In this document: one piece after another, positions 135 through 6,040 of the stretch
How the letters are laid out: every line of letters starts with the position of its first letter
Position numbering within the stretch: position 1 is the first letter of the stretch
Source of the DNA: a virus
Strand: one strand, 5' to 3'
Length of the DNA stretch: 41,217 nt
Virus record (IMG/VR): IMGVR_UViG_3300049432_000009
Span: 1-41,217 of that record
Notes under the pieces: generated by a model
The model's input: only the letters and a program-made list of their open reading frames with translations
Database searches by the model: none
What the model was told of the DNA's origin: nothing
Translations under genes and position numbers: made by a program

Positions 135-186
135 TGGTGCCTCCATCGCAGAGGTAAGACCCATCAGCCTCGCGCTGAAAGGTTGG

Positions 187-3503: not shown

Positions 3504-4527
3504 CCTTCAGCCACGCGCCAGAACCGGACACAAGCCGGTTCCCGAAGAACCGTTCCGCCTGCGCCCTGTCCGTCTCCATCAGCTCCGAAGCTTCACCCTC
3601 GATAGAGTCGAGATTGACCCACGGCGAACCCTCATAGACGAACCTGTGAATCCGAGCACGGTCCCGCTTGTTCCCATAGGAGAGCTCGGCCGGCGGCTGC
3701 CGGAAGAACTTGAAAACGTCCTTCGACTGCGACTCATAGGTCCGCTGCGCCGTCGAGTTCTCCGCCGGATCCCACGCGTTCGTCGTCTCAATCGTGCGGC
3801 CACCCATACCGGCAGCACCACGACGCTGAGTCTCCGCAACCTTGATCATCTTGTTCGTCTTCGTATACAGGCCAGACTCATCCTGGAACGCAAACGAAAT
3901 CGGGTTACCAAGCTTCGACTGAGCATTCGACGTCACAGCATCGATCCGGTCCATGTCCTCATCGCCGGACTCACCAACGATCCGGATGAAATCCTCACGA
4001 ATCAGCAGCAGATCAGCCAAAGGACCCAGCCGGATCATCGCCTTCAGCGGGCGAAGAATGTTATCGACCTGATCCTCAGAGGTGGCCGTCAACTGGATCA
4101 GCGGCGACGGATGCCGGATCCCCTTAGGCTCACCCTCAAGGTATTCGTACGTCCACCCGCACGAGCAGCCATTAGCGGCGCACTCGTAGAGCTCGCCAGC
4201 CTCAGCCCAACCATTGAACACGGACGGACCCACAGCCTCGCCCGTCGTCACGGCCGCCGCCCAAGGGCCCTTGCCGGTCTTCTGAGGCGCCACGACCTGC
4301 GAACGCCGGTAGACGAACGCCTGGTTCAGCAGAGGACGATCAGGAACCCACAAAGCATCGGGACGGACCCGGTAATGGTTCGCCGTGCACCAAAACTGCC
4401 AGTCAGACTGCCGAAACTCAGCCCCGCGGGCGAACCCATCAGGGACACGGCAATGATGAGCGATCCAAGCGTCCAGCAAGTCGCCGAGCGTGGGGAAGTC
4501 AACGAGGAAACCCTCAGCCGCCGCCAT
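3454..4527 (-). CDS. terL: Terminase large subunit, ATPase domain (first frame)
   Basis: This 357-residue frame is the packaging-motor ATPase. A variant Walker A lies at residues 79-88 (VAPQKTGKGP), Walker B at 211-218 (SFAFQDES, with D216 and E217), and a coupling motif ETTNAW at 247-252. It runs normally to GLWDAAYA (residue 350), then after seven more codons hits a stop, while the nuclease half continues in the +1 frame. It overlaps the small subunit gene by 14 bases. A full-length terminase of this kind is normally about 500-570 residues in one chain. Confidence 0.9.
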   Translation of the reverse strand: MAAAEGFLVDFPTLGDLLDAWIAHHCRVPDGFARGAEFRQSDWQFWCTANHYRVRPDALWVPDRPLLNQAFVYRRSQVVAPQKTGKGPWAAAVTTGEAVGPSVFNGWAEAGELYECAANGCSCGWTYEYLEGEPKGIRHPSPLIQLTATSEDQVDNILRPLKAMIRLGPLADLLLIREDFIRIVGESGDEDMDRIDAVTSNAQSKLGNPISFAFQDESGLYTKTNKMIKVAETQRRGAAGMGGRTIETTNAWDPAENSTAQRTYESQSKDVFKFFRQPPAELSYGNKRDRARIHRFVYEGSPWVNLDSIEGEASELMETDRAQAERFFGNRLVSGSGAWLKDGLWDAAYATPMASES

Positions 4528-4978
4528 TGACGGCCCTCAGCCGGCGAGCCGGTGCAGCCTTAGCTTCAGGAGCGGAAGTCTTCTCGGAGCGCTTCTCCGT
4601 AACCTCATCAGCAGCAATCGCCCAGCCGTTTTCCCGGAGCCCTGCAGGGGTCAAGCCGATCTGATCGCCCAGCCGGTGAACCTGGCCAAGAAAAGCCGCC
4701 GGCACGTCACCCTCAGAACGCACAGACCAGCGGCAATACATCGCCACCGTCCGGATACGCCACGGCTCAGCGGCCCACGCGGCAGCTTGCGGAGTGACCC
4801 AAAGATCGGCCCACACCTCAAGCTCGCGAGGCGTCGCTTCCGGCAGGTCAAACTCGGGAACATCGCCCGTGAAACCCTCCGAAGGCAGCGCAGTGAACTT
4901 GACGCCCCGGGCGTCAGAACGGCCAGAACGAGGATCAGCTTGCGGCCCGGAACGATTACGTGCTCCACCCTTCGTCAT
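4514..4978 (-). CDS. terS: Terminase small subunit
   Basis: This 154-residue protein starts with a basic, Gly-rich N-terminus (MTKGGARNRSGPQADPRSGR). It then has the pattern typical of actinophage P27-type small terminases, LPEATPRELEVWADLW ... AAAWA ... RTVAMYCRW, followed by a short charged tail. Small terminases recognise the packaging site and recruit the large subunit. The ATG at 4978 has GAGGTAG upstream. Its leader contains a strongly folded RNA (5004-5134). Confidence 0.85.
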   Translation of the reverse strand: MTKGGARNRSGPQADPRSGRSDARGVKFTALPSEGFTGDVPEFDLPEATPRELEVWADLWVTPQAAAWAAEPWRIRTVAMYCRWSVRSEGDVPAAFLGQVHRLGDQIGLTPAGLRENGWAIAADEVTEKRSEKTSAPEAKAAPARRLRAVNGGG

Positions 4979-5003
4979 GACTACCTCCTCGCGCTTTGCA
5001 TGG

Positions 5004-5134
5004 TTACGAGATCGGCACTGACGGGAATTGGACCCGCATCCACTGCCCCGGCATTAGGTTGGACACCGTATTCCACGACTAGCCGCGTGGGGTGTAGCCA
5101 TTCCAATAGGCTACAGACAGTGCCGACCTCGTAA
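5004..5134 (-). ncRNA. Structured tRNA-like RNA upstream of terminase
   Basis: On the minus strand a 17-bp stem (5118-5134 with 5004-5020; the only non-Watson-Crick pair is G-U on this strand, but A-C on the other) encloses three hairpins in cloverleaf order. These are a D-arm-like hairpin with a 7-bp stem and a GG-containing loop (5093-5115); an anticodon-like hairpin with a 5-bp stem (5073-5090) and an 8-base loop containing CTA; and a T-arm-like hairpin (5021-5037, loop TCCAATT). ACACC/GGTGT (5091-5095 with 5063-5067) can extend the middle arm. The stem is too long and the middle too large for a standard tRNA. Its 3' side ends 26 bases before the terminase small-subunit start. It could be an odd tRNA, a leader RNA, or part of a packaging site. 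Confidence 0.5.
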
Positions 5135-5223
5135 ACTTGGGAAACTCTGAACCCTCCGCACCACCGAGCGACCTCACCGGCGGTCTGGCGCCGAGGGTCC
5201 GTTTAGGGGGTGCCCCCCACCCT

Positions 5224-5979: not shown

Positions 5980-6040
5980 TGGGCTGGCGGGACTCGAACC
6001 TGCAGCGACTATGGGGGGTCGTCGCTCACCATGCAGCCCG
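5980..6040 (-). tRNA. Degenerate tRNA-like element
   Basis: On the minus strand there is a canonical T-arm core (GGTTCGAGTCC, in 5991-6003). A 6-bp acceptor-like pairing (GGGCTG/CAGCCC) flanks it, and an anticodon-like stem GCGAC/GTCGC lies in the middle. The whole element is only 61 bases, with no proper D-arm, one A-C mismatch in the T-stem, and an 8- to 11-base anticodon loop (CCCCCATA in the smaller form). It is best read as a tRNA remnant or tRNA mimic; a working tRNA is doubtful. Confidence 0.35.

Follow-up and report, generated by a model that had tools for sequence, protein, structure and literature searches.

The tRNAs that phages encode have been proposed or shown to act as supplements or to evade tRNA-cleaving defenses (PMC10264068; PMC13096335). 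In actinophages, tRNAs, some of them odd, lie near the left ends of the genomes, and abundant RNAs have been recorded at genome ends (PMC13313380, PMC10986025, PMC3203893); e.g., in the Rhodococcus phages of cluster CA, a third tRNA, close to the left end, is ambiguous in its charging, and the tRNA genes are transcribed late (PMC13313380). Parts of the tRNA architecture also recur outside phages in the non-decoding mascRNA/menRNA (RF01684), which combines a T arm with an acceptor-like stem. Among phage RNAs of other kinds, the pRNA of phi29 folds as a three-way junction with two interlocking loops.

The window considered here, i.e., the entire 41,217-nucleotide stretch of viral DNA that was analyzed (IMG/VR record IMGVR_UViG_3300049432_000009), groups with temperate Arthrobacter-type phages in both protein and DNA comparisons, and its minus strand codes for a tRNA-shaped RNA. 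Along with its homologs, this RNA resembles class II tRNAs, which have a long variable arm (RF00005), in the order of its arms, the GG of the D loop, a T arm abutting the end stem, a UUCGAAU T loop in four of five members and, in two, a tandem arrangement with a tRNA-like gene. However, unlike those tRNAs, the family has a closing stem of 10–18 bp, an extra T-stem nucleotide (four of five members), no U33, an invariant loop that does not correspond to an anticodon and an invariant variable region, and tRNA models miss it. A parallel may also be drawn with the odd actinophage tRNAs, such as the third tRNA of the cluster CA phages (PMC13313380) and the tRNA-OTHER of Gordonia phage Smoothie, in the uncertain decoding and the frequent placement close to the left end or next to HNH and terminase genes; but those score as tRNAs or near-tRNAs, whereas the family has a core of its own, and the Smoothie tRNAs reach only 15–20 bits with the family model. 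The likeness to mascRNA lies in the T arm, the acceptor-like stem and what would be a non-decoding nature, but mascRNA is eukaryotic, around 60 nt in length and made from MALAT1.

A tRNA-shaped fold with an extended closing stem

Read from 5134 to 5004, the minus-strand RNA has a minimum free energy of −65.6 kcal/mol as against −43.1 ± 3.8 for shuffled sequences (z −6; none of 200 shuffles as good). A 17-bp closing stem encloses, in order, UC, a D-like arm with GG, an anticodon-like arm, a long variable region and a T-like arm, and is followed by CCA (Table 1). The 22-nt inverted repeat at 4999–5020/5118–5139 is the best of all the inverted repeats in the window, and with the minus-strand fold it bears out the extent of 5004–5134 and the 17-bp closing stem that had been proposed in a preliminary description from the sequence alone. 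That description had further held the fold to appear only on the minus strand, at a four-way junction. The minus strand is clearly the better one, with the plus strand of 5004–5134 giving −56.4, an interior that folds in another way and a stem interrupted by an A/C mismatch, but "only" was a slight overstatement, as the plus strand still stands at z −4.9. Likewise, the tRNA-shaped multi-arm junction is real and covaries in four homologs, but it is one in which five helices meet, namely the closing stem and the D-, anticodon-, variable- and T-like helices.

A survey of 2.55 Mb of related DNA gave 132 hairpins resembling T arms, of which only that of this RNA is abutted by an uninterrupted 17-bp helix, the next best being of 10. 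In single-sequence folding, this T arm lies off the energy minimum for its region, and a rival pairing competes with it in energy models; real tRNAs in the same setting can behave likewise. The decisive support for the fold being real comes from its covariation with the four homologs.

Table 1. Coordinates of the RNA and its surroundings in the window, and of the tandem gene in two homologs
Feature	Position	Strand	Remarks
Closing (acceptor-like) stem, 5' strand, UUACGAGGUCGGCACUG	5118..5134	(-)	8 of 10 inner pairs changed on both sides among homologs
D-like arm UGUAG(CC)..(GG)CUACA, loop with GG	5093..5115	(-)	one compensatory pair
Anticodon-like arm CCACG-CGGCUAGU-CGUGG, no U33	5073..5090	(-)	3 of 5 pairs compensatory
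Long variable region: hairpin GGUGUCCAACCU.AUGCC + GGGG.AGUGGA	5038..5072	(-)	near-invariant in five members
T-like arm GCGGG-UCCAAUU-CCCGU, abutting the closing stem directly	5021..5037	(-)	one compensatory pair
Closing stem, 3' strand, CAGUGCCGAUCUCGUAA	5004..5020	(-)	fold and inverted repeat
CCA right after the stem	5001..5003	(-)	not kept in homologs
Putative small-terminase gene (4514-4978): RBS GAGGAGG (4990-4984) and ATG (4978-4976), shortly after the RNA	4976..4990	(-)	
Conserved cos region with left genome end 5173, beside the RNA and separate from it	~5149..5190	(-)	matches base 1 of Isolde
61-nt D-armless tRNA-like gene	L226 437-498; L227 just upstream of 1729	L226 (+); L227 (-)	shared core GCAGGGUGUACCUGCCGGG

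Homologs in other phages

A scan of 2.9 million viral contigs with exact patterns, first of the anticodon-like arm and then of the variable region, identified homologs on four contigs (L223, L225, L226 and L227), which score 82.5, 96, 76 and 75 bits, respectively, with the first model. With the five-member family model, the members score 118–139 bits and the best non-members, mostly tRNAs and tRNA-like genes, at most 20; this model recovers the five known records as a positive control. The patterns match near-exact sequence only, and the size of the family is to be read as a lower bound; the five members represent four distinct sequences, i.e., four distinct rows in the alignment.

BLAST searches gave T-arm or chance matches only, both for the window RNA against phages, plasmids and 298 host-family genomes and for the RNAs of the homologs against annotated phages and plasmids, where the T arms were those of tRNAs. 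A covariance model of the single sequence (R1) found nothing in 175 related loci, and its weak matches in host genomes are tRNAs or chance; the family model found no member in 395 class and 396 order genomes. Several candidates were rejected: the matches to the patterns of the D arm (L194–L200, with no homolog among them), the closing stem (L213–L217) and the T arm (L086) are chance or other tRNA-like pieces, and L230–L234 have in common an 18-letter pattern only. No curated family of Rfam 15 reaches its gathering cut-off in the window, the sole name to surface being mascRNA at the best, non-significant E of 3.9. The RNA family is absent from Rfam 15 and apparently undescribed.

Compensatory changes around an invariant core

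In the five-sequence alignment (four distinct rows), standard pairs occupy 98.4% of the cells as against 83.5% in shuffles, and 13 of the 31 pairs have changed on both sides as against 4.6. None of 500 shuffles reaches any of the covariation measures, and structures slid along the alignment yield at most two pairs changed on both sides. The changes fall in the closing, anticodon-like, D and T stems (counts in Table 1). Compensatory changes, which had been named at the outset among the checks for this RNA, are thus present, and by the proportion of paired cells and of pairs changed on both sides the sequences almost certainly make up a genuine, conserved family of tRNA-like RNAs.

The closing stems of distinct members are 20–55% alike, whereas the core is 76–90% alike; the stems also span 17, 10, 18 (with one mismatch), 11 and 11 bp in the five members. 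Within the core, two segments hardly vary, namely the loop CGGC(U)AGU, in which an inserted U is the sole difference, and GGUGUCCAACCU.AUGCCGGGG.AGUGGA. The hairpin of the variable region shows no covariation, being nearly the same in all five, and a candidate UCCA/UGGA pseudoknot fits all the sequences but never varies. The window alone among the members encodes CCA after the stem; CCA is also missing from many tRNA genes of actinobacteria. A fixed loop and core on a divergent closing stem is what would be expected of a scaffold that offers an unchanging binding surface, rather than of an adaptor centered on its anticodon.

Genomic settings and the question of a leader

In the window, HNH and terminase genes flank the RNA, and a tyrosine integrase gene lies elsewhere; no T-arm-like sequence was found near the integrase of the kind that tRNA-dependent lysogeny (PMC10865867) would involve. 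The left physical end of the genome can be placed at 5173, separate from the RNA, since base 1 of phage Isolde matches this position and nine viral contigs begin exactly there. The minus-strand RNA thus sits between cos and the start of the small terminase, and, together with the compensatory changes, this position upholds the early suggestion of a new RNA in the terminase leader. In relatives with as much as 98% identity in the large terminase, cos and the small-terminase start are separated by only around 30–40 nt and the RNA is missing, which points to either a recent gain in the window lineage or a loss in the relatives.

The cos-to-terminase leaders of the relatives have a structure of their own: of 90 distinct leaders, 56 contain exactly two tandem small hairpins with an invariant GCRAN loop (GNRA with an added base), 16–31 nt ahead of the small-terminase start (e.g., L024, L065, L098, L124 and L131). 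These hairpins occur 132 times in the sense orientation and once in antisense, their stems covary strongly, and they have no Rfam match in the eight relatives scanned. More of them cluster around 4.3–4.8 kb downstream, and a single similar hairpin lies at 165–179 (minus strand) of the window, after the head-protease gene. In appearance, the GCRAN hairpin is an RNA motif, as yet undescribed, that belongs to the late operons of actinophages.

The homologs occupy varied settings. In L226, a gene for a DNA-binding protein takes the small-terminase position a short distance downstream of the RNA, and the large terminase and portal genes come next; L227 has a DNA-binding protein of the same family and, apparently, the beginning of a similar terminase. 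The window and L226 differ in the PHROG family that their large terminases match. In L225, the RNA lies between repressor/ImmA genes and an integrase gene, and in L223 it adjoins the gene of a phage DNA polymerase and is encoded on the strand opposite its neighbors; this polymerase looks like a family-B enzyme and, from its sequence motifs, like a protein-primed one. These settings indicate that the RNA travels as a unit and independently of cos. Only 1–2 nt ahead of the family RNA in L226 and L227 is the end of a D-armless tRNA-like gene of 61 nt, a junction that would be expected if RNase P separates the two and that is thus indicative of tRNA-type processing. The two 61-nt genes have acceptors GGGACUG/CAGUCCC and UGGACUG/CAGUCCA, and both acceptor and T stem differ compensatorily between them.

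In the window, L226 and L227, the RNA shortly precedes a same-strand gene that takes the small-terminase position. This placement, with an RBS directly after the RNA and another structured RNA pair in the same slot of the relatives, would also suit a cis-acting leader that processes, stabilizes or regulates the terminase mRNA as an RNase P/RNase III or regulator-binding site. However, such a leader is hard to reconcile with the member between repressor/ImmA genes and integrase (L225), with that on the strand opposite its neighbors (L223) and with the nearest relatives doing without the RNA, and it is on the whole unlikely.

tRNA likeness and decoding

Every member has GG in the D-like loop, and by the tRNA hallmarks of a UUCRANY loop and G53–C61 the T arm qualifies as tRNA-like; its loop reads UUCGAAU in L223, L225, L226 and L227 and UCCAAUU in the window, and the T stem has an extra nucleotide in four of five members. 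The acceptor of tRNAs comprises 7 bp (8 in tRNA-His and tRNA-Sec), as against 17 bp in the window and 10–18 bp across the members, such that the stem is indeed longer than a tRNA acceptor. ARAGORN calls no tRNA at the RNA, and the Rfam tRNA model (RF00005) has no match in the window even at E 10.

As first described, CTA is present in the middle loop (CGGCUAGU). However, CUA occurs in the anticodon-like loop of two of the five members, the other three having CGGCAGU without it. The loop CGGC(U)AGU has 8 nt in two members and otherwise 7, with G at position 33 in all five, and TAG ends 17 of the 56 selected ORFs of the window as an ordinary stop. With CUA not conserved, U33 replaced and TAG in ordinary use, the amber-reading tRNA that had been envisaged is unsupported. 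An atypical translating tRNA of a broader kind, i.e., one with an enlarged variable region that reads amber, serine, cysteine or four-base codons, would be in keeping with the presence of D, anticodon-like and T arms, with an 8-nt loop that allows CUA or GCU to be read, with the tandem tRNA-like gene in L226/L227 and with the use of odd tRNAs by phages; nevertheless, beyond the G in place of U33, the loop is kept whole across its 7- and 8-nt versions, which would shift any anticodon, and the acceptor-stem length, the silence of ARAGORN and of the Rfam tRNA model and the role of TAG in the window likewise make translation by this RNA improbable. From sequence comparison, there is good reason to think that the family RNA does not decode codons.

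Aberrant tRNA-like genes in the phage group

Other tRNA-like elements are found in this group. A D-armless mini tRNA-like element of around 60 nt lies upstream of the HNH gene at 5980–6040 of the window (minus strand), with a T arm, an acceptor-like stem and a hairpin with the loop GACCCCCCATA; its relatives in L004 (~1904–1973) and L006 (~1843–1895) differ in acceptor sequence. The tRNA-like genes at 1293–1381 of L061 and 726–816 of L156 have very long anticodon stems and C-rich loops, and those at ~925–1030 of L057, ~1080–1200 of L099 and 1704–1811 of L124 have oversized middles; ARAGORN misses most of these five. At ~2170–2350 of L086 (minus strand), a perfect T arm is followed by CAGTGCCG, with a near-complementary CGACACTG around 150 nt upstream and no ARAGORN call; this may represent a further oversized tRNA-like gene or a tRNA with an interruption. 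Near its HNH/cos end, the phage group seems to abound in tRNA-like genes of aberrant form. A tandem duplication of the 3' half of a tRNA was also considered and is not significant (p 0.11).

Packaging, decay and cos

A packaging RNA with a role like that of the phi29 pRNA has some appeal in that both are phage RNAs of similar size with a long closing stem, three of the five members adjoin terminase genes, and the contig of a fourth has a DNA polymerase of the family-B phage polymerase group. But the five-helix tRNA-like junction with its T arm stands against the three-way junction of pRNA, Rfam gives no match, close relatives with the same terminase and packaging genes lack the RNA, and the L225 member lies by an integrase gene, making this role very improbable. 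A functionless relic, be it the remains of a tRNA gene or a mobile element bounded by inverted repeats, might be suspected from the strong terminal inverted repeat, the absence of the RNA in the nearest relatives and the abundance of odd tRNA-like genes in this group; however, it is scarcely credible in the face of the compensatory changes and invariant core in other phages; the repeat does not recur in the window, 298 host-family genomes contain it nowhere at full length, and no target duplication was seen. A cos DNA element or a DNA-level inverted repeat recognized by the terminase, i.e., the "part of cos" of the preliminary description, is contradicted despite the genome end being around 40 bp away, as the conserved cos with its end at 5173 lies outside the RNA and persists and functions in relatives that lack it, the fit is better on the minus strand than on the plus, covariation extends to the D, anticodon-like and T arms, and two members (L223 and L225) do not adjoin terminase genes.

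A non-decoding tRNA mimic as the probable reading

The combination of a family, a fold and non-decoding tRNA mimicry is, taken as a whole, probable. Such an RNA would be transcribed from the minus strand with the terminase operon or the neighboring genes, would be excised by host tRNA-processing enzymes in the manner of a tRNA and would act in trans as a stable, non-decoding tRNA mimic, with a protein contacting its invariant loop and variable region. It may serve as a mimic or decoy, or as a resistant mimic, for host proteins that act on tRNAs, e.g., tRNA-cleaving defense nucleases; this decoy function, drawn by analogy with the roles proposed or shown for phage tRNAs, is put forward tentatively. 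Somewhat less likely than not is the possibility of a dedicated class of phage effector RNAs, with the shape and processing of a tRNA, an invariant, possibly pseudoknotted domain and a loop that bind a host or phage protein, and a stand-alone gene that moves between unrelated phages. An effector of this kind may disarm a tRNA-cleaving defense or regulate late genes.

Phage tRNA genes have been widely discussed in terms of counter-defense, and tRNA programs see canonical cloverleaves only. A covarying tRNA-like family that such programs miss suggests that phage tRNA mimics form a layer hitherto hidden from view. Given a conserved, apparently non-decoding loop and an invariant core, the protein partner can be sought directly, and the question of why phages carry odd tRNAs becomes a concrete biochemical one.
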